A stretch of 64,000 nucleotides of DNA, taken from contig NZ_CP041330.1 in assembly GCF_013394165.1 (NCBI RefSeq), positions 1,542,501-1,606,500 on the forward strand, given 5' to 3'. The position numbers and the translations under genes are program-made. The notes beneath the pieces are model-generated. The model saw only the letters and a program-made list of their open reading frames with translations. It did not search any database and was not told the DNA's origin. The stretch's first letter is position 1. Every line of letters starts with the position of its first letter. The DNA is from Pseudoalteromonas sp. Scap06. GTDB taxonomy: Bacteria; Pseudomonadota; Gammaproteobacteria; Enterobacterales; Alteromonadaceae. Positions 2,015-36,901 of this stretch are shown in pieces.

Positions 2015-4093
2015 TTACCAAATACGAACGCGTTCTTCTTCTGGTAGGTACAACTCATCACCTGGTTTTACATCAAATGCTTTATACCAAGCGTCGTGGT
2101 TACGAGGTGCTTGTGCTCTAAAGCGACCTGGTGCGTGAGTACCACCACGTAATTGGTTTAACATGCTTTGCTCAGTACGTTTTTCTTTCCATACTTGTGC
2201 CCATGCTAAGAAGAAACGTTGATCGCCGGTTACACCATCAATTACCGGTGCTTCTTTACCATTTAGGCTTAGTTTGTAAGCATGATAAGCCATGGCTAAA
2301 CCACCCACATCACCAATATTTTCACCTAAGCTGTTGCGGCCATTTACAAAGTTACCTGGAATTGGTTCGTATTTGCTGTACTGAGCTGCCAGTTTGTCAG
2401 CTTTGGCATCAAAAGCAGCACGATCTTCATCAGTCCACCAATTACGTTGTATGCCGTTAGCGTCAGATTTTGAGCCTTGATCATCAAAACCATGACCCAT
2501 TTCGTGGCCAATCACAGCGCCAATGCCACCGTAGTTTACTGCTGGATCTGCATTTGGATCGAAAAACGGTGGTTGTAATATAGCGGCAGGGAATACAATT
2601 TCGTTAAATGAACTATTGTAGTAAGCGTTAACACGTTGTGGTGTCATGCCCCAACGATTACGATCGGTCTTTTTCAGCTCTTTTTCTACACTTTCAGCCT
2701 GGAAAAACTCACGCATATTTTTTACATTAGCCATTAAGTCATTGTTGCTAATGCTTAAGCCTTCATACGATTGCCATTCATCTGGGTAACCAATTTTTGG
2801 CACAAATGCCGCTAATTTTGCACGCGCGTTCACTTTTGTTTCTGCACCCATCCAATCTAAGTTATCAATACGCTCACCAAGGGCTGTGCGTAAGTTTTCA
2901 ACAAGCTCAGACATTTGTTGCTTAGATGACTCAGGGAAATAACGATCTACGTAAATTTTACCAATTGCAAAGCCTAATGAGCTGGTGCCTGACATTTGGC
3001 TGATAGCGCGTTTCCAGCGTGGACGTGGCTCTTGTTGACCATTCAATTCTTTACCAAAAAAAGCAAAATTGGTGTTAAATATCTCTTCAGACAACAGCTC
3101 AGCGTTACCATTAATTGCATGATACGTTAGGTAGTCTTTCCATACGCTTAAATCTTCGTTATTGATTAAGTCAATCATGGCTTTAACAGGTTCAGGCTGC
3201 GATACGTTTAATTGTGGTACTTTATAACCTGTTTGCGCAAAGTATAAATCCCAGTTAAATCCTGGGTATTGTGTACTTAACTCATCGCGTTTTACTTGGT
3301 TTAGGGTTAAATCACGATTACGGCGTTTTTCACGAGGCCAATGACCTTCTGCAATTTTGGTTTCAAGCGCTAAAATCGCTTGTGCACGCTCTGTGGTATT
3401 ATCAACCCCTGCAAATTTAAGCATATCGGCAATATGTGCCACATACGCTTCACGAGTTTTTACAAAACGTTCTGCATCTTCAAGGTAGTATGAGCGATCG
3501 GGTAAGCCTAAGCCACCTGCACCTAATGACATTTCGTATTTATTGGGATCTAAACGGTTAAACCACATACCGCCGCCAAGTGGTGCACTTACACCCGTAA
3601 GCCAAGATTGGCCAAATACTTTTGCCAAATCATCAGTAGAGGCAACCGAATTGATGTCGTTAAGCAACGGCTTAATTGGCGTTATACCAAGTTTATTAAG
3701 TGTCTCGGTATCCATGTACGAATTATAAAAGTCAGCGACCAGTTGCTCTTCGGCGTTTAAGTTTTCACGTGCTGCAATGTCTTCAATAATTTCTTTAACG
3801 CGATCTTCACTGCGCTCAGCTAGCGCAGAGAATGCACCGTAGCGGGTTTTATCTGCTGGCATTTCGTAGTTGTCGTACCATGAACCACTGGCGTACATGA
3901 AGAAATCGTCGCCTGGTTTTACAGCTTCGTTACGCGCAGTTAAATCAACTCCAAACGTGCCTAATTCGGCTTGCTTTGTTGCTTGTGGTTTTTCTGCAAC
4001 TGCTGCTACTTGCTCAGTTTTTGTTGTTTGTGGCTCAGAACAGCCGGTAATAAATGTAGCGGCGAGTGCCGCTGCAATTAAACTTTTTTTCAT
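2015..4093 (-). CDS. pepO: M13 family zinc metallopeptidase lipoprotein (PepO-like)
   Basis: Neprilysin-type endopeptidase (M13), probably degrading short peptides in the periplasm. Residues 1-18 form a lipoprotein signal with the lipobox TGC at 16-18, so the protein is expected to be membrane anchored. The zinc site HEMGH lies in VIGHEMGHGFDDQG, with the third ligand in ENIGDVGG; the substrate-binding NAYYNSSFNEIVFPAAI stretch precedes it. At 692 residues it has full family length. The usual C-terminal CxxW is replaced by VRIW, so the usual disulfide there cannot form; this is seen in other bacterial members. Transcribed alone from the minus strand. Confidence 0.93.
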   Translation of the reverse strand: MKKSLIAAALAATFITGCSEPQTTKTEQVAAVAEKPQATKQAELGTFGVDLTARNEAVKPGDDFFMYASGSWYDNYEMPADKTRYGAFSALAERSEDRVKEIIEDIAARENLNAEEQLVADFYNSYMDTETLNKLGITPIKPLLNDINSVASTDDLAKVFGQSWLTGVSAPLGGGMWFNRLDPNKYEMSLGAGGLGLPDRSYYLEDAERFVKTREAYVAHIADMLKFAGVDNTTERAQAILALETKIAEGHWPREKRRNRDLTLNQVKRDELSTQYPGFNWDLYFAQTGYKVPQLNVSQPEPVKAMIDLINNEDLSVWKDYLTYHAINGNAELLSEEIFNTNFAFFGKELNGQQEPRPRWKRAISQMSGTSSLGFAIGKIYVDRYFPESSKQQMSELVENLRTALGERIDNLDWMGAETKVNARAKLAAFVPKIGYPDEWQSYEGLSISNNDLMANVKNMREFFQAESVEKELKKTDRNRWGMTPQRVNAYYNSSFNEIVFPAAILQPPFFDPNADPAVNYGGIGAVIGHEMGHGFDDQGSKSDANGIQRNWWTDEDRAAFDAKADKLAAQYSKYEPIPGNFVNGRNSLGENIGDVGGLAMAYHAYKLSLNGKEAPVIDGVTGDQRFFLAWAQVWKEKRTEQSMLNQLRGGTHAPGRFRAQAPRNHDAWYKAFDVKPGDELYLPEEERVRIW

Positions 4094-4290
4094 TACTTTC
4101 CCCTATGAATTCACGTTATTTAATTCGTTATATATTTTTGTTATAAAAATAGCTACTTGATTGTATTGATAACTTCACTGCAAACAAACCTTTTGAGGTG
4201 AATAACCGTACCGGTCGATAAGATAAATGAAATACTAGCAAAATAGCAAAAAAGCACTCAGATACTTCAATCGTACCCGAGAGGCTTAGT

Positions 4291-6081
4291 TTATTGCGCC
4301 TTTGACTGTTTTTGTTGCAAGGTCCACATATGCGCATATTCACCATTTTGCATTAGTAATTCATCATGTTTACCTTGCTCTACTACTTCTCCCGCCTTAA
4401 GCACGATAATAGTATCGGCATCGGTAATTGTTGATAAGCGATGCGCAATAACAATACTTGTGTGGTTAGAGGCAACCTCTTGCATAGCGTTTAATATGGC
4501 TTGTTCAGATTGTGAGTCGAGCGCGGAAGTGGCTTCGTCAAAAATTAAAATTGGCGATTGTTTTAAAATAGCGCGAGCAATAGCAATACGTTGTTTTTCG
4601 CCACCAGAGACTTTTAGTCCGCGTTCACCTACTAAGGTTTTATCGCCTTTATCTAGGCTACTAATAAAGTTTGTTAGATGCGCCATGTTTATAGCTTTGT
4701 TTACTTCATCTTCACTGGCGCTGGGTCTGCCGTAGTGAATATTTTCGCGTATACTGGTATTAAATAACACAGTATCTTGCGGCACTATGGCAATAGCTTT
4801 ACGCAAACTTGCCAAGGTGACCGTGTTTATGGCTTGATTATCAATTTTTATAGCGCCCGATGAAAGTTCATAAAAACGGTATAACAAGCGGGCTAACGAG
4901 CTTTTACCTGCGCCACTAGCACCTACAACCGCTACCTTAGCACCAGAGTTTACATTAAAACTGACGTTCTTAAGAATAGGACGCTTGCTATCGTAGCTAA
5001 AGCTGACGTTTTCAAAGCTAATTGCCCCATTTTTGAGTGCTAATGGTTGCGCGGTTTCGCTATCTGCTATTTTGGGGGAGGTATTTAATAACCCAAGCAT
5101 GTTTTCAAGGTCGGTAAGGGCACGGCGTATTTCACGGTACACAAATCCCAAAAAGTTAAGCGGTAAAAATAATTGGATCATATACGCATTGATCATTACC
5201 AGCTCACCAATCGTTAACTCGCCGGTAACCACTTCATTGGCTCCAAGCCACATTAATGCGGTTATCGCACATGCAATGATCAGTGCTTGCCCTGAATTAA
5301 GCGCCAGTAACGAGAGTCTGTTTTTTAATCGTGCTTGTTCCCAGGTTGCTAAAAATGTGTCGTAAGTTTGGGCTTCATGCTGTTCATTATTAAAGTATTT
5401 TACGGTTTCGTAATTTAATAGACTGTCGATGGCACGGGTGTTACTTTGATTATCAGCAGCGTTTGACTCACGAATAAAGCGGTTTCGCCATTGGGTAACC
5501 GTCACGGTAAAAAAAATATAAATAGCCACAGCCAATAGGGTGATCAGCGCAAACCAAATAGAAAACAAGCTGCCAAAAATAATCGCCACAGTTATTATTT
5601 CAAACAACGTGGGCACAATATTAAACATTAAAAAGCGCATTAAAAAGCTTAAGCCACTGGTGCCGCGTTCTATGTCTCGACTTATACCGCCAGTTTGCCT
5701 GTCTAAATGAAAGGCTAAATCTAACGAGTGCAAATGTTTAAACACTTTAAGGCCAATATCTCGCATGGCATGCTCGGTGACTCGCGAAAATACCGCATCG
5801 CGTACTTCACCCAAAAATACGCTAGCAAAGCGTAATGCGCCGTACATAACGAGTAATAAAGTAGGAACAAGCAGTAGTGGGTTAATTGATTTATCAACCG
5901 AATCAATTATTTCTTTTAAAGCCCATGGCATGAGTAATGTCGCGCCTTTAGCACCGACTAGCGCTAATATAGCAATCAGCACACGGCCTTTAAATTTAGT
6001 GATATAAGGCCAAAGAGTTTGAATGCTTTGTTTTAAATTCATGGCGTCGGGGCGTTTTACTGAACTTTGTCTGGAGCGCAT
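4291..6081 (-). CDS. ABC transporter, fused permease and ATPase, Atm1/HMT1 type
   Basis: Half-transporter with an N-terminal six-helix exporter domain (about residues 15-320) and a C-terminal ATPase. ATPase motifs are Walker A GASGAGKSS, signature VSGGEKQRIAIARAIL, Walker B ILIFDEATSALD and H-loop IAHRLST. The transmembrane part, with LNYETVKYFNNEQHE and SGQALIIACAITALMWLG, matches the Atm1/ABCB7/HMT1 branch, which exports glutathione-linked metal or sulfur compounds. The substrate here is inferred from family only. It functions as a homodimer. The start at 6081 gives 13 residues before MNLKQSIQTLWPYI; the inner ATG at about 6042 is an alternative. Divergent from the small secreted protein at 6195. 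Confidence 0.85.
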   Translation of the reverse strand: MRSRQSSVKRPDAMNLKQSIQTLWPYITKFKGRVLIAILALVGAKGATLLMPWALKEIIDSVDKSINPLLLVPTLLLVMYGALRFASVFLGEVRDAVFSRVTEHAMRDIGLKVFKHLHSLDLAFHLDRQTGGISRDIERGTSGLSFLMRFLMFNIVPTLFEIITVAIIFGSLFSIWFALITLLAVAIYIFFTVTVTQWRNRFIRESNAADNQSNTRAIDSLLNYETVKYFNNEQHEAQTYDTFLATWEQARLKNRLSLLALNSGQALIIACAITALMWLGANEVVTGELTIGELVMINAYMIQLFLPLNFLGFVYREIRRALTDLENMLGLLNTSPKIADSETAQPLALKNGAISFENVSFSYDSKRPILKNVSFNVNSGAKVAVVGASGAGKSSLARLLYRFYELSSGAIKIDNQAINTVTLASLRKAIAIVPQDTVLFNTSIRENIHYGRPSASEDEVNKAINMAHLTNFISSLDKGDKTLVGERGLKVSGGEKQRIAIARAILKQSPILIFDEATSALDSQSEQAILNAMQEVASNHTSIVIAHRLSTITDADTIIVLKAGEVVEQGKHDELLMQNGEYAHMWTLQQKQSKAQ

Positions 6082-30250: not shown

Positions 30251-30709
30251 ATGTTTTTTCGTGCAAATTATTTTGAGCTAGCACCTAAAGCAATACAGAT
30301 TCTGATGAACCAAGAAGACTATCTGCGTAAGCAATTTAGTATTTCAGAAACAGTAACAATCCCGATCTGGGAATTGATTAAACTAAGAGTGTCGCAGATG
30401 AATCAGTGTGCCTTTTGTATTGATATGCACAGCAAAGACGCATTGAGTCATGGGGAAACTCATGAACGTATTATTGGCTTAAGTGCATGGCGTAATATGC
30501 CTTTATATTCTAAGACAGAACTAGCTGCGCTCGATTGGGCTGAATATTTGACCCTAGCTAACCCCGTAGACGAAGAGTTCTATAAGAATACGGTAGAAGT
30601 ATTAGGTGAAAAAGCTGTAGTGGATTTGACCATTGCGATTAATGCTATCAATAGCTGGAATCGAATTGCTAAGACGTTTATGCCAGAGGTAGGCAGCTAT
30701 AAACCGTAA
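30251..30709 (+). CDS. Carboxymuconolactone decarboxylase / AhpD-like protein
   Basis: 152 residues of the all-helical AhpD-like fold. The redox or catalytic motif CAFCIDMHSKDA (CxxC followed by His) is intact, as in peroxidase-type members that reduce peroxides or act as thiol oxidoreductases. Preceded by a good AAGGAGGTGAG ribosome site, stronger than most in this window. It is followed after 31 bp by an AraC-type regulator in the same direction, a pairing often seen for this family. Confidence 0.85.
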   Translation: MFFRANYFELAPKAIQILMNQEDYLRKQFSISETVTIPIWELIKLRVSQMNQCAFCIDMHSKDALSHGETHERIIGLSAWRNMPLYSKTELAALDWAEYLTLANPVDEEFYKNTVEVLGEKAVVDLTIAINAINSWNRIAKTFMPEVGSYKP

Positions 30710-30740
30710 TAAATTATTTGAACAGGCATTTAATTTTCAG

Positions 30741-31472
30741 TTGTCTCAACCATCGGGGCAGCTGTCTGCGTTTGTGCAGGGAGTATGGTCAGCATCTGTA
30801 CAGCAACCGGTTCCGATAGTAAAGCCGCTGTATTCTGATGCTGGCAGCGGCATTATTTTTAACCTTGTTGGTGACGTGATGATTGGCAATGAAACCCTGC
30901 CGGAAGGTGTCATTATGCTTGCTATAAATAAACAGACTGAGAATATTGTTCTGCAATCTGGAGCACAACTCTCAGGCATTCGTTTCCATCCAGCCATTTG
31001 CTATGGTGTTTTGGGACAGCATTACGACAAGCCAACACTTTTATTGCCAGAGGAAGACCAGCTTTATAACCTTTATGGGGTTTATAATGATCTCCGAATT
31101 CAAAAAGACATTGAAAGGCGAATTGAAACTCTGCACCGCTGGGCAGATAAAAACCTAGATTTTTCCAAAGTAATTCCAGCCCCTCTGAAGAAAGCACTAA
31201 TGTATATCGAGCAGGATGAAACGCCGGGGCAATTAAGTGCAAGTATTGATTTGAGCCAACGGCAAATTGAGCGTATTTTTAAACTTTGGCTAGAAATGAC
31301 TCCCAAACATTATCAGCGGATTTTAAGGGTTAAAAAAACAATCAGCTTTTTACGAACATACAAAAAAGCAAACTTAGCTGATGTTGCTCACCAATTTGGA
31401 TTTAGTGATCAGGCGCATATGACACGGGAATTTCGTACTTTTGCATGTATTACGCCAGGGCAAATAGAGTGA
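30741..31472 (+). CDS. AraC-family transcription regulator
   Basis: About 243 residues with a C-terminal AraC domain: the first helix-turn-helix in LSASIDLSQRQIERIFKLWL, the second in NLADVAHQFGFSDQAHMTRE. The N-terminal part is a DUF6597-like sensor region. Start uncertain: the frame is open back to 30693 and the codons before TTG 30741 (reading KLFEQAFNFQ) look coding, but no ATG, GTG or TTG lies there. The true start may therefore be a rare codon, or an upstream start may have been lost. It probably regulates the AhpD-like gene before it. Confidence 0.8.
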   Translation: MSQPSGQLSAFVQGVWSASVQQPVPIVKPLYSDAGSGIIFNLVGDVMIGNETLPEGVIMLAINKQTENIVLQSGAQLSGIRFHPAICYGVLGQHYDKPTLLLPEEDQLYNLYGVYNDLRIQKDIERRIETLHRWADKNLDFSKVIPAPLKKALMYIEQDETPGQLSASIDLSQRQIERIFKLWLEMTPKHYQRILRVKKTISFLRTYKKANLADVAHQFGFSDQAHMTREFRTFACITPGQIE

Positions 31473-32262: not shown

Positions 32263-33165
32263 TTATTTCTGTAATTGGTAAAATTTTACCAATCCTTTTG
32301 ATAGCCCAATAGGAAAGGTCGAGTAATGATCGCTTCCTTCAACAACTTCCTCTTCTAGCTTTAATTTTTGGTAATTACGTGAGCGTAATAGATTTGCAAA
32401 CTTCACATGACCTGCGACCATATCTTCTTTCATGCCATTTTCTAACGTTTCTAATGCGCCAGTTGCCATAAATACATTAGCCTGCAGCGATGTGTTTTTC
32501 TGGGCATATTTATTTTCTAACTCAAATATCCAATTATTCTTAAACCAGAGTGAAGGGCTGGTTAAGATATAAGTAGAAAACAGCTCAGGCTTGGTCAACA
32601 ATACCCAAGCGGCAAAAGATCCCCCCAATGATTGCCCAGACAATATTCTTTGTTCAGGGTTAACTCGGTAATTGCGCTCAATGTACTGAAAGATTTCTTT
32701 TTCAATAAATGCTAAGTATTCAGTTGCTCCACCTGTGGTGTATTTTGTCCAGCTCTGATCAACGACAGGTGTTAAATCTCTAACTCGACTAAATTGACCG
32801 TCTTCTCCGTGAGCAAATGAAATACCAACAATAATGACTTTATCCATGTCTCGAACATGAGTGACACCAGCAGCTACTTTAAAAGTATAAGGTCCATCAT
32901 TTAAGTAAAGTACAGGGTATTTTTTAGATTTATTCTCTACTAAGAAATAACTACGGGGTACTTTGATATATAAATCGTATTTCTTACCCAGCACTGTGGA
33001 TTTAATTGTTACTACTTTACTGTTAGCAATTTCAAAACGATGGCCTTCAGCGAGTGCAAGATTGCTGCAAATTATATTGAGCATAAAAATTAAAGCTAAG
33101 TATTTTACAAAACACGAGGAGGAAATAATTAAACTGCATATTGTCAAAAAAGTAGTCGGTTTCAT
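32263..33165 (-). CDS. Secreted esterase of the esterase D / IroE-like family
   Basis: 300-residue periplasmic or secreted serine hydrolase (PF00756-type). After a long hydrophobic leader (likely cleaved after NLALA) come YPVLYLNDGPY, the nucleophile serine in ILSGQSLGGSFAAW, and the histidine in EGSDHYSTFPIGL. The family includes siderophore esterases and mycolyl-type transferases, so the substrate is open. The ATG at 33165 is used: longer frames start inside the operators and lack ribosome sites. It is divergent from the blaI-like gene and shares its control region, so it is probably under the same repressor. Confidence 0.78.
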   Translation of the reverse strand: MKPTTFLTICSLIISSSCFVKYLALIFMLNIICSNLALAEGHRFEIANSKVVTIKSTVLGKKYDLYIKVPRSYFLVENKSKKYPVLYLNDGPYTFKVAAGVTHVRDMDKVIIVGISFAHGEDGQFSRVRDLTPVVDQSWTKYTTGGATEYLAFIEKEIFQYIERNYRVNPEQRILSGQSLGGSFAAWVLLTKPELFSTYILTSPSLWFKNNWIFELENKYAQKNTSLQANVFMATGALETLENGMKEDMVAGHVKFANLLRSRNYQKLKLEEEVVEGSDHYSTFPIGLSKGLVKFYQLQK

Positions 33166-33271: not shown

Positions 33272-33289
33272 GTGCGACACGTGTCACGG
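33272..33289. promoter_or_regulatory. Operator 1 of the BlaI-like repressor
   Basis: GTGCGACACGTGTCACGG, an 18 bp near-palindrome around a perfect GACACGTGTC core. It matches the second copy at 33319-33336 in 14 of 18 positions, including the first ten. It sits just upstream of the blaI -35 box and toward the esterase gene. Confidence 0.6.
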
Positions 33290-33291
33290 TG

Positions 33292-33320
33292 TTGCGTTTT
33301 AACATACAGGATGTTAAAGT
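33292..33320 (+). promoter_or_regulatory. Probable promoter of the blaI-like operon
   Basis: TTGCGT (33292-33297), 17 nt spacer, TAAAGT (33315-33320). Operator 2 begins inside the -10 box, so a bound repressor would block transcription. Confidence 0.45.
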
Positions 33321-33336
33321 GCGACACAAGTCACAC
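33319..33336. promoter_or_regulatory. Operator 2 of the BlaI-like repressor
   Basis: GTGCGACACAAGTCACAC, symmetric as GTG-GAC...GTC-CAC, 47 bp after operator 1 and 15 bp before the blaI start. The two copies define a consensus GTGYGACAC followed by GTGTCRCAC, allowing for half-site variation. Confidence 0.6.
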
Positions 33337-33351: not shown

Positions 33352-33729
33352 ATGAAACCCAATTCAACAGAGTTAGAAATACTGAAATTACTTTGGAAAA
33401 AACAGCCACGTACAGCCAAAGAGATTCATGAACACTTAGAATCAAAGTATGGCTGGTCATACTCATCTACACGTAAAACCTTAGAAAGAATGGGCAATAA
33501 AGGAATTTTAGAGGTGGGCTCCTCTGGCAACAAAAAAACCTTTAAAGCATTAGTTGAGAAAATACCGACGCTAGCATCTTATATGCAGGAATTCGCAACC
33601 AATGTCTTAGAGTTAGATGAACCACTCCCTGTCACTATGTTCGCTGATAGCCGTTTAATAAATAAAGCTGAAGTCGATGAATTAGAGGAATTGTTAAATC
33701 AACTTTCAAAGGATGAAAAACAAAAGTAG
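33352..33729 (+). CDS. BlaI/MecI-family transcription repressor
   Basis: 125-residue winged-helix repressor: MKPNSTELEILKLLWKKQPR, recognition helix WSYSSTRKTLERMGNKG, then a C-terminal dimerisation part. In BlaI/MecI systems a membrane M56 protease triggers cleavage of the repressor after sensing a cell-wall insult. The ATG at 33352 is chosen because family members begin at this point; an upstream ATG at 33289 lies in the operator region. The next gene, an M56 peptidase, overlaps by 1 nt, so the repressor and its partner protease are coupled. Confidence 0.9.
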   Translation: MKPNSTELEILKLLWKKQPRTAKEIHEHLESKYGWSYSSTRKTLERMGNKGILEVGSSGNKKTFKALVEKIPTLASYMQEFATNVLELDEPLPVTMFADSRLINKAEVDELEELLNQLSKDEKQK

Positions 33730-35078
33730 TGGACTCTTTCATTATTCAATTCATAGTAAATAGTATTTTTCCTTGGCTTATATTTTCTGGGCTTGTTTAT
33801 GTTTGCTCATCTTATATAACCAAGCACGACAATACCTCGCCAGGTATTTGGTGGTCTGCGCTTATAGCCAGCTTTTTACCTTTTATTCCTTTATCTCTTG
33901 GCACTATTAATATACCTATCCCTGATTTCGATTATATAAGCTCTAGTTTGCAAAGCGCACAAATAGTAAAGCAAGCCAGTATAACCCATGTAAGTTTGCA
34001 GAAAATTGATTTAATCTCAACAGCGCTAATTGTTGGTTACTTTGGTTTTACCTGCTTAAAACTCGTTAAATTATTGCTTGTGTGGCAGAAACTCAAAAGC
34101 TTAACGAGATCTTCTGAGTCAATAAATGAGCTGTCGACTAGTAAGGTGAAGATTGTCATTTCCTCGCAAAACCACAGTCCTTTTGTCATTGGTATAACAA
34201 CAGCCTATGTTGTGCTACCTCATTATTTTTCATTCCTAAATAAAGATCAGCAAGGCATTTTGATTCAACACGAGCTAACCCATATTACAAACAAAGATCA
34301 TATTACGATTCTTTTATGGAGGATCTTAAGCATCGTTTTATGGATAAACCCATTTGTTAAAAAGATGGAATGGCAGTTTATTCGCGCTATGGAGCATAGG
34401 TGTGATAGACATACAATATGTCGCTTTAATCTCAACAAACATGATTATGCTAAGGCACTGCTGCAATCATTAAAAAAGAGCATTCAATTTAGTAACAACA
34501 ATCCAGTCGCTCAATTTAGTTCTGCTGTGCTTTGTGCTGATGATTACAAAGCGAGGCTTTCAAATATTGCTTCGCCATCGAGTAAAAGCAAACTTGCTTT
34601 AACTTTTAAGTTCTTCTTAATGATACTGGTTATTTTTAGTCTGCATACATTTTTAAAAGACCCCGCAATGACAGGGAAGCTCACTTGGCAACATCCACTA
34701 AATAGCCATACGATCAGCTCAACATTTCGTAGCATAAGCAAAGTCAGAGGATATAAACCGCATCAAGGTATAGACTATGTTGCCCAAAGAGGAAGCCCTG
34801 TGCTGTCTGCTGCAGATGGAGTAATAGTTATTTCAGGTAACAAAACCTTGCATTCGAACTATGGAAATACTGTATTAATTCAACATAAAAGTGGCTATCA
34901 AACGTTATATGCGCACCTAGAATCAAGTGACGCTAAAGTCGGCTCTTGGGTTAAAGCAGGGCAGGTTATTGGTATCATTGGTGATACAGGTAAAACGACA
35001 GGGGTTCACCTGCACTTTGAAGTAATTAAAGACAACCAAAGAGTTGATCCTAGTTTAGTCCTCGTTACTAAATCATAA
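33729..35078 (+). CDS. M56 (BlaR1-type) membrane peptidase fused to an M23 (LytM) endopeptidase domain
   Basis: 449 residues. The N-terminal half is a BlaR1/MecR1-type multi-pass protease with helices near 10-30, 40-55, 90-115, 195-215 and 285-305. Its zinc site is HELTH at 181-185, with a downstream acidic ligand probably in AMEHRCDRH. The C-terminal part (about 315-449), where BlaR1 has its penicillin sensor, is an M23 domain with HQGIDY at 345 and HLHFE at 427-431; both metal motifs are intact. By BlaR1 topology this domain faces the periplasm. It may sense or cut peptidoglycan and signal to the repressor. GTG start overlapping the repressor stop. Confidence 0.88.
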   Translation: MDSFIIQFIVNSIFPWLIFSGLVYVCSSYITKHDNTSPGIWWSALIASFLPFIPLSLGTINIPIPDFDYISSSLQSAQIVKQASITHVSLQKIDLISTALIVGYFGFTCLKLVKLLLVWQKLKSLTRSSESINELSTSKVKIVISSQNHSPFVIGITTAYVVLPHYFSFLNKDQQGILIQHELTHITNKDHITILLWRILSIVLWINPFVKKMEWQFIRAMEHRCDRHTICRFNLNKHDYAKALLQSLKKSIQFSNNNPVAQFSSAVLCADDYKARLSNIASPSSKSKLALTFKFFLMILVIFSLHTFLKDPAMTGKLTWQHPLNSHTISSTFRSISKVRGYKPHQGIDYVAQRGSPVLSAADGVIVISGNKTLHSNYGNTVLIQHKSGYQTLYAHLESSDAKVGSWVKAGQVIGIIGDTGKTTGVHLHFEVIKDNQRVDPSLVLVTKS

Positions 35079-35125: not shown

Positions 35126-35794
35126 ATGTATCAAAAGCTGCTTTTTATTATTTTTACTTTTCTTTTTAGTTCATTTAGCTATGGTGGCAAAGTATATGAG
35201 AGCTTCCCAGACAAAGTAAATCCATCAGAGCATTATGTTTTTTATTCTCACGGATTCATTGTAGAGGGTAAAGATCCCACACCTATTCATGAGCGTTGGG
35301 GGCAATATAACTTTCCAGCGATTAAACAGGAACTTGCCGACTCAAGCTATCATTTAATTGCTACTCATCGGCCAGCTAAGACTCACCCTTTTAACTACGC
35401 TCAACAGCTATCTAAACAAGTAACTAAGTTACTAAAAAATGGCATACCTGCGAGCAATATATCGCTAGTTGGCTTTTCTCGCGGCGGGTTTATTACGGCA
35501 ATTACATCGAGCCATTTAAAAAACATCGATATTAACGTTGTGATTTTAGCGGCTTGTACCAGTGGATTAGCTAAAAAAACAGAAATAGCTATTTATGGTC
35601 ATTTATTTTCAGTGTACGAAACCTCTGACTCTGTTGGTTCATGTGACGATGTCGTTAATAGAAGCATTAATACGGTTAGTTCTTACACAGAAATATCTAT
35701 TTCAACGGGTAAAGAACATGGCGCTTTTTTCACACCGAGAAAAGAATGGATATTACCCGTTAAAGCGTGGCTCAAACGTAAAAAGATTCAGTAA
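35126..35794 (+). CDS. Secreted alpha/beta hydrolase
   Basis: 222 residues with a signal peptide (about 1-20, cleavage after SYG). The fold shows the oxyanion strand HYVFYSHGFIVEG, the nucleophile elbow LVGFSRGGFITAI (Ser) and a late histidine in GKEHGAFFTP. An aspartate in SCDDVVNRS may complete the triad. Not assigned to a known reaction. It follows the M56-M23 gene by 47 bp in the same direction, so it is probably the third gene of that operon and part of the same envelope response. Confidence 0.7.
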   Translation: MYQKLLFIIFTFLFSSFSYGGKVYESFPDKVNPSEHYVFYSHGFIVEGKDPTPIHERWGQYNFPAIKQELADSSYHLIATHRPAKTHPFNYAQQLSKQVTKLLKNGIPASNISLVGFSRGGFITAITSSHLKNIDINVVILAACTSGLAKKTEIAIYGHLFSVYETSDSVGSCDDVVNRSINTVSSYTEISISTGKEHGAFFTPRKEWILPVKAWLKRKKIQ

Positions 35795-35878: not shown

Positions 35879-36901
35879 ATGGAAATTAGAAAATTAAATT
35901 CTCTAAGAGCTTTAGCTGCCCTTATTGTATTTGTTACTCACTTTTCAGATATTACTCATTGGTTAAATGGTTCCCTAGGCGGCGGTTCAGGAGCCTATGG
36001 CGTAATGTTATTTTTCCTTCTTAGTGGTTTTTTAATGTCATTTCTCTATTTAGATACCAAATTTAGCAGACTGAACATTAGACGATACGTACTAGCTAGA
36101 GCCGGACGAGTTTTACCTCTGTACCTTGTAATTGTTTTTAGCTCTTACTTATTAACTCAAAATAATTATGACATTTTATACAACATAACTGATCTTAATT
36201 CGCTAATAGGTCACCTTTTGTTCATGCATGGTGAAAGCGTACTTTGGACAATTCCACCAGAAATACAATTTTATATAATCTTACTCGTTTTTTGGTTTTT
36301 AGCAGGCGATAGAAAAGGGTATATATATTTACTAATTGTGACTTTTATGATGTTTTGGTACTTGGCTGACTTCCCAAGAGTATTTGGTGAAATTAAAAGT
36401 GTCCATTACAACATATTTAGTACTTTAAGAACGTTACCGTACTTTTTTATTGGCGTTATATTTGGTTTGCATTACAAATTATTTAAAGTGCCGAGTTATA
36501 TGAAGAGCAACTGGTTTATATTAGCTTTGTGTTTAATACCTTTATTGTATCCTGAGTTTTCACCTATTAACGAGGGTGACAAGAAAAGAATGTGGCTTAG
36601 TTATGAAGTTCTATTTGTTATGAGTACAGTATTCTTTTGTGTTGTTTTTTTAATCCCAGACAACAATATTTTTTTAGCAAATAAGGTTGGTGACTTTTTA
36701 GGTAAAGTGTCTTACTCATTTTATTTATTGCATATGCCTATTATTGGAATGGTGAATAAGTTTAATTTAAATATTGAACTTAAACTGTTGCTATCACTAA
36801 GCCTGAGTGTTTTTTTTGCGCATCTATCGTACGTATTCTTTGAAAGGCCTATTGCAAATAAAATTAGAAGCGCCTCAAATAAAAAGAAGCTCAACATTTA
36901 A
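35879..36901 (+). CDS. Acyltransferase family 3 membrane protein (OafA-like)
   Basis: 340 residues with about ten membrane helices, the acyltransferase-3 domain that acylates cell-surface sugars from the cytoplasmic acyl-CoA pool. The family start KLNSLRALAALIVFVTHFSD holds the catalytic-type histidine, and RAGRVLPLYLVIV the conserved arginine region. There is no C-terminal SGNH domain. Base composition is clearly more AT-rich than the neighbouring housekeeping genes, suggesting acquisition. Which surface polymer it modifies is unknown. Confidence 0.82.
   Translation: MEIRKLNSLRALAALIVFVTHFSDITHWLNGSLGGGSGAYGVMLFFLLSGFLMSFLYLDTKFSRLNIRRYVLARAGRVLPLYLVIVFSSYLLTQNNYDILYNITDLNSLIGHLLFMHGESVLWTIPPEIQFYIILLVFWFLAGDRKGYIYLLIVTFMMFWYLADFPRVFGEIKSVHYNIFSTLRTLPYFFIGVIFGLHYKLFKVPSYMKSNWFILALCLIPLLYPEFSPINEGDKKRMWLSYEVLFVMSTVFFCVVFLIPDNNIFLANKVGDFLGKVSYSFYLLHMPIIGMVNKFNLNIELKLLLSLSLSVFFAHLSYVFFERPIANKIRSASNKKKLNI

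Follow-up and report, generated by a model that had tools for sequence, protein, structure and literature searches.

A BlaI-paired M56–M23 fusion in Pseudoalteromonas as a candidate peptidoglycan-responsive antirepressor

Pseudoalteromonas sp. Scap06 (4.13 Mb genome, two contigs) carries a BlaI-type repressor gene paired with the gene for an M56–M23 fusion, in which a BlaR1-type protease is joined to a LytM peptidase and both catalytic sets are present. By analogy, the fusion is probably a BlaR1-like antirepressor whose cue is peptidoglycan. The system may sense the wall itself, and comparison with relatives points to control of its own operon together with a small number of envelope enzymes. 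Sequence comparison supports the gene pairing, the conservation of residues, the operators and the regulon. Coordinates refer to the window, the whole 64,000-nt stretch of contig NZ_CP041330.1 analysed here.

Composition and conservation of the gene pair

The repressor (33352–33729, plus strand) is a 125-residue protein assigned to Penicillinase_R (PF03965; 78.5 bits, cut-off 22.6) and alignable with MecI. The last base of its stop codon is the first base of the GTG start of the fusion gene (33729–35078, plus strand; 449 residues), giving the blaI–blaR1-like architecture with a 1-nt overlap that an earlier note on this DNA had described. The fusion, our candidate antirepressor, comprises an M56 (BlaR1-type) protease region (residues 40–256, with HELTH at 181; 33846–34496, plus strand; 84.9 bits and a BlaR1 alignment) and an M23/LytM peptidase domain (residues 344–441; 34758–35051, plus strand; 109.2 bits), both above their Pfam cut-offs. 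A Pfam scan of the protein returned M56 and M23 only, with a penicillin-binding sensor domain absent, and the generic NCBIfam BlaR1 model gave 51.4 bits (cut-off 400). Both zinc sites are intact; Pfam and residue alignment agree with the earlier view that M23 takes the place of the beta-lactam sensor, its motifs and the HELTH being preserved.

Across an alignment of 39 fusions, which takes in the betaproteobacterial L006, M56 residues H181, E182, H185, D190, E222, D226 and R276 are present in every member and Y240 in 38. M23 residues H345, D349, H427 and H429 are found in all 39 and H396 in 38, the L147 fusion having Asn at that position. Loss of catalytic residues from either domain in most orthologues, the outcome that the earlier note set against its own reading, was looked for in these 39 fusions and not seen. 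A third Glu also has a role in the M56 active site. Roles of the M56 functional residues, this Glu excepted, are taken from passages of PMC9834060, which also place the cleavage site of Staphylococcus aureus BlaI at Phe102. Alignment with MecI pairs this BlaI/MecI cut-site residue with Phe97 of the present BlaI, a Phe in 39/39. F263 of the fusion is present in 36/39, its equivalence to Phe284, the hydrophobic P1' residue of the autocleavage loop, being a reading of an uncertain alignment.

M23 is the best conserved of four segments compared, with a median pairwise identity of 47% where the M56 core reaches 35%, and the spacing from R276 to H345 is 69–73 residues in 33 of the 39 fusions. Hydrophobic helices fall at places matching those of BlaR1, but the charge pattern shows no bias clear enough to indicate a topology such as N-out, C-out; loop 57–90 is a low-confidence region of the predicted structure. 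The M23 domain starts shortly after the last hydrophobic helix, which suggests wall contact near the inner membrane. Its fold matches the EnvC LytM domain well, yet the zinc ligands are complete throughout. Degenerate LytM activators (EnvC/NlpD type) are marked by loss of zinc-binding or catalytic residues. With every zinc ligand in 39/39, the fusion does not fit that class, and it possesses the HxxxD and HxH motifs and the further catalytic His of M23/LytM peptidases.

The fusion occurs in at least 36 of the 295 genomes of the family, a lower bound among the matches listed, in which weaker M23-only matches were checked in part. Some M23 match is found in all 295, so the raw M23 tally is not a fusion count. 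In a sample of 369 genomes from the class, three pass E 1e-30, the window's own among them. A BlaI homologue lies directly upstream of the fusion in 36/36 loci, a count that excludes L005 (split fusion), L007 (taken as the genome of L125), L016 (no BlaI by BLAST) and L046 (no BlaI); 75 further loci of the homologue list lie outside this one-by-one reading. The BlaI pairing holds in the survey of neighbours that the earlier note had proposed, and, together with the operators at blaI, it rules out a chance neighbourhood. Two of the excluded loci differ in kind: L005 (3132–4850, Pseudoalteromonas luteoviolacea) retains blaI with the fusion match spread over two frames, through sequencing error or decay, and L016 (5001–6167, a Croceivirga MAG) has an M56–M23 match with no BlaI homologue found nearby by BLAST, perhaps a separate kind of fusion.

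In a midpoint-rooted tree of M56 sequences (52 rows), the BlaI-paired fusions form a 42-row group (support 98/94) together with P0024, P0026 and P0027, and with L006 inside it. The M23-bearing M56 proteins P0028, P0033 and P0040 fall outside on long branches, a placement that only suggests a separate origin for their fusions.

Operators and regulon

Two palindromes, each one mismatch from TGYGACANNTGTCRCA and 47 bp apart, sit between blaI and the divergent esterase gene (33273–33288 and 33320–33335). Comparison across loci makes them candidate BlaI operators. The TGYGACANNTGTCRCA palindrome, at up to one mismatch, occurs within 150 bp of blaI in 36/36 loci and is paired in 35, with spacings of 34 bp (17 loci), 33 bp (14), 47 bp (3: the window, L115 and L116) and 32 bp (1). 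Among 252 other upstream regions from the same loci there were no matches, even at two mismatches. The window's genome contains only these two sites at up to one mismatch to the general pattern, leaving a broad regulon there unsupported. Searches with the first operator pattern were at chance level within this genome: three matches at up to three mismatches in the window alone (2.05 expected, not significant), and two exact plus four two-mismatch matches genome-wide, below the reversed control (10 and 9). The significance of the operators therefore rests on other genomes. A scan for consensus promoters and terminators found fewer promoters than in shuffles and about equal numbers of terminators.

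A single exact operator is present in 32 of the 36 fusion genomes and in 13 of the 259 others (Fisher p 4.9e-28, a value that ignores kinship of the genomes). Reversed-pattern sites match in 13/295 genomes, which means that part of the single sites must be due to chance. Among the 13 non-fusion genomes with an exact site, one has blaI at a contig edge and one a decayed copy of the system; in eight the site lies in an unrelated ORF and in three between unrelated genes. Fusion genomes together hold 45 exact sites, four of them away from blaI: three precede an esterase gene and one (G222) lies in an unrelated gene.

Searching the 295 genomes for paired operators (spacings 34 and 33, up to three mismatches) gave 20 and 18 places, respectively, 38 in 33 genomes; the reversed paired pattern gave none in the same set. 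Thirty-one of the 38 are at blaI in fusion genomes. In G040, blaI is truncated by the contig edge. G033 holds a decayed copy (L225, about 3950–4550) in which the operator pair persists beside 14 blaI codons and scattered pieces of the fusion. These spacings are blind to G000 (the window's genome), G255 and G225 (47 bp), G073 (32 bp) and G222 (a single site), whose operators are known from the scan of upstream regions.

The remaining five places (G176, G137, G248, G192 and G157) are away from blaI, in fusion genomes, and every one precedes, by 34–192 bp, a gene belonging to the window's esterase family. The main loci of G176 and G137 lack an esterase within six genes, and the relocated esterase carries the operator pair; there (L190, L191) that pair has a divergent alpha/beta hydrolase on its other side (by Pfam for the G137 copy), which may be a further target. 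An acyltransferase homologue follows the operator-bearing esterase in G248 (L192) and in G192 (L234; 67% identity). The relocated esterase of G157 and its operator pair adjoin a BlaI–M56 pair of a different type (L235, 1477–5020). Because these five relocated homologues bear the paired operator, the divergent esterase of the window belongs to the circuit, as the earlier note had suggested. Sequence data thus leave the circuit of operators and small regulon well supported. Operators and regulon are new here; neither operator nor the acyltransferase described below figured in the earlier note.

The window's esterase (32263–33165, minus strand; PF00756, 82.7 bits on the longer ORF) is a secreted protein and regulon member whose start at 33165 is set by alignment with relatives. 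Ser179 and His280 are invariant in 11/11 sequences of alignment A2, and among solved structures BES and siderophore-type esterases are the nearest to it. Downstream of the fusion, on the same strand, an alpha/beta hydrolase with a signal-like start (35126–35794, plus strand; PF02230, 24.6 bits, cut-off 23) begins after 47 nt, followed after a further 84 nt by an Acyl_transf_3 membrane acyltransferase (35879–36901, plus strand; 102.3 bits). Both are probable operon members.

Secreted hydrolases recur as cargo, bearing out the theme that the earlier note drew from the window. At least one of four cargo families, defined as BLAST clusters of mechanically called ORFs with Pfam run on representatives, lies within two genes of the fusion in 33/36 loci; L121, L148 and L149 have none of the four in that range. 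Counted by loci, secreted M23 endopeptidases (MepM/ShyA type) occur in 10, S12 (PF00144) serine hydrolases in 15, the esterase in 12 and the alpha/beta hydrolase in 4, the L124 member of the last family being without a Pfam match. Where the cargo is M23 or S12, it is always the immediate downstream gene, and M23 cargo appears in several separate branches of the M56 tree; neither type was found beside the fusion in the window. By sequence the S12 cargo is nearest Flp, IS11, AmpC and ClbP.

Other neighbours vary. L006 (6034–8151) and L196 (7661–9940), the two BlaI-paired fusions least related to the rest, are followed by a gene for a TonB-dependent receptor, and the output of these systems may be different. 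Near the system in the window (30251–31472) lie a carboxymuconolactone-decarboxylase-family gene and an AraC-type regulator; homologues of both, in swapped order, stand a few genes beyond the fusion, downstream of it, in the related loci L128, L129, L130, L135 and L140.

A proposed switch and its alternatives

By homology, BlaI would repress and M56 would relieve that repression. In the following scheme, the binding and cleavage of BlaI, the orientation of the fusion in the membrane, the role of the wall as cue and the choice between binding and cutting as the M23 signal are inferred. BlaI would bind the two palindromes between the esterase gene and blaI, repressing in both directions. The M56 protease of the fusion would lie on the inner side of the inner membrane and the M23 domain just outside, where M23 would engage peptidoglycan, be it a fragment, a nascent strand or a stem peptide within reach. 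The resulting change would be transmitted through the membrane helices, M56 would cut BlaI on the N-terminal side of Phe97, and expression of the operon and of the esterase would follow; in other species the enzyme made would be an S12 serine hydrolase or a secreted M23 endopeptidase. In BlaR1, passages of PMC9834060 report direct cleavage of BlaI and displacement of an extracellular loop from the sensor by beta-lactam. Loop 57–90 is the counterpart of that loop, and we speculate, on this analogy, that it might plug the M23 groove. An autoregulated switch of BlaR1/BlaI type with M23 engaging peptidoglycan is the reading towards which we lean, with modest confidence. That the wall provides the signal is reasonable to suppose by analogy. 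A cell-wall damage response, as the earlier note called it, is a fair guess from the cargo and the same analogy; against a wall-specific regulon, its enzymes, the M23 endopeptidase excepted, are not peptidoglycan-specific, with siderophore-type proteins nearest the esterase and no M23 or S12 cargo adjoining the fusion in the window.

The M23 domain might read cuttable cross-links by hydrolysing them, its working state switching M56 and a small envelope regulon being tuned to cross-link availability; we consider this doubtful, if worth entertaining. In 10/36 loci the neighbouring enzyme, presumably induced, shares the M23 fold of the sensor, and the sensor of BlaR1 likewise resembles the class of enzyme it induces. 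Alternatively, M23 could be an effector only, a tethered endopeptidase fused for co-expression, while M56 answers membrane stress, a lipid or a metal. Its catalytic residues are kept, as in a working enzyme, whereas a pure sensor could lose them, and other outer domains exist on M56, such as TonB_C in a paralogue of the same genome. However, the domain occupies the place of the BlaR1 sensor at a near-fixed distance from the M56 helices (in 33/39), and the pair retains BlaI and operators; we find an effector-only role unlikely.

Two further explanations would move the signal or the purpose elsewhere. The secreted hydrolases, of differing chemistries, could form an inducible defence in which they destroy or modify wall antibiotics while M23 senses damage or a drug-bound precursor. 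A link to D-peptide or lactone antibiotics might be drawn, but a search yielded no useful support for it. The BlaR1/BlaI parallel and the likeness of the S12 cargo to class C beta-lactamases (Pfam, PDB sequence match) would fit such a defence, but this cargo scores 112 bits with the NCBIfam model for class C beta-lactamases, far under the cut-off of 415, and ten loci have instead an M23 endopeptidase, which would leave a small drug intact, so that we judge a defensive role quite unlikely. Least probable, to our minds, is a cytoplasmic wall fragment binding BlaI directly, the membrane protein merely feeding or amplifying the signal. Passages of PMC3305447 report that the gamma-D-Glu-m-A2pm dipeptide binds BlaI/MecI and propose this route for Bacillus licheniformis, and an M23 enzyme could, we suppose, release material upstream of such fragments. 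BlaR1, however, cleaves BlaI with no further component according to passages of PMC9834060, and the cut-site Phe is present in all 39 BlaI proteins here.

Little is yet settled about how Gram-negative bacteria gauge the condition of their cell wall. The antirepressor reading offers a compact two-gene candidate wall sensor whose operator is defined, whose regulon is small and in which individual residues can be singled out for mutation.

Relation to known systems

The earlier note placed M56–M23 fusions in other genomes too, with no characterized pathway known to it. M56 is named among the catalytic domains that co-occur with M23 in a passage of PMC9662197, and some relatives bear the NCBI protein name 'M23/M56 family metallopeptidase'; neither the M23–M56 passages of that paper nor the names give a pathway, operator, regulon or function. 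No study of a BlaI/M56–M23 pathway was found among the literature matches listed. The MepM, ShyA, ShyC and DipM endopeptidases share the M23 catalytic set and fold, but bear N-terminal domains of their own, whereas here M23 is joined to a membrane protease.

M56–TonB_C proteins with BlaI share the BlaI–M56 core and differ in the outer domain. The window's genome encodes such a second pair (L150, 5874–7469; G000 C1, about 92,370–93,970), where no operator of TGYGACANNTGTCRCA type was found. BlaR1 may be one case of a wider class, as these architectures suggest, in which a BlaI–M56 core is combined with a penicillin-binding, TonB_C or M23 domain; if so, one proteolytic relay would read different envelope cues.

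The closest parallels are the BlaR1/BlaI and MecR1/MecI pairs known from staphylococci and B. licheniformis, with which the present pair has in common a BlaI-family repressor, the functional residues of the M56 membrane protease, a divergent promoter region with paired operator palindromes and an outer domain after the last helix. It differs in having an M23 peptidase with an intact site and no penicillin-binding domain, in lacking an adjoining beta-lactamase or PBP2a in the window, and in its NCBIfam BlaR1 score (51 against 400 bits). The fusion thus works, on our reading, like BlaR1/BlaI, yet it is not a BlaR1, because the penicillin-binding domain is absent.
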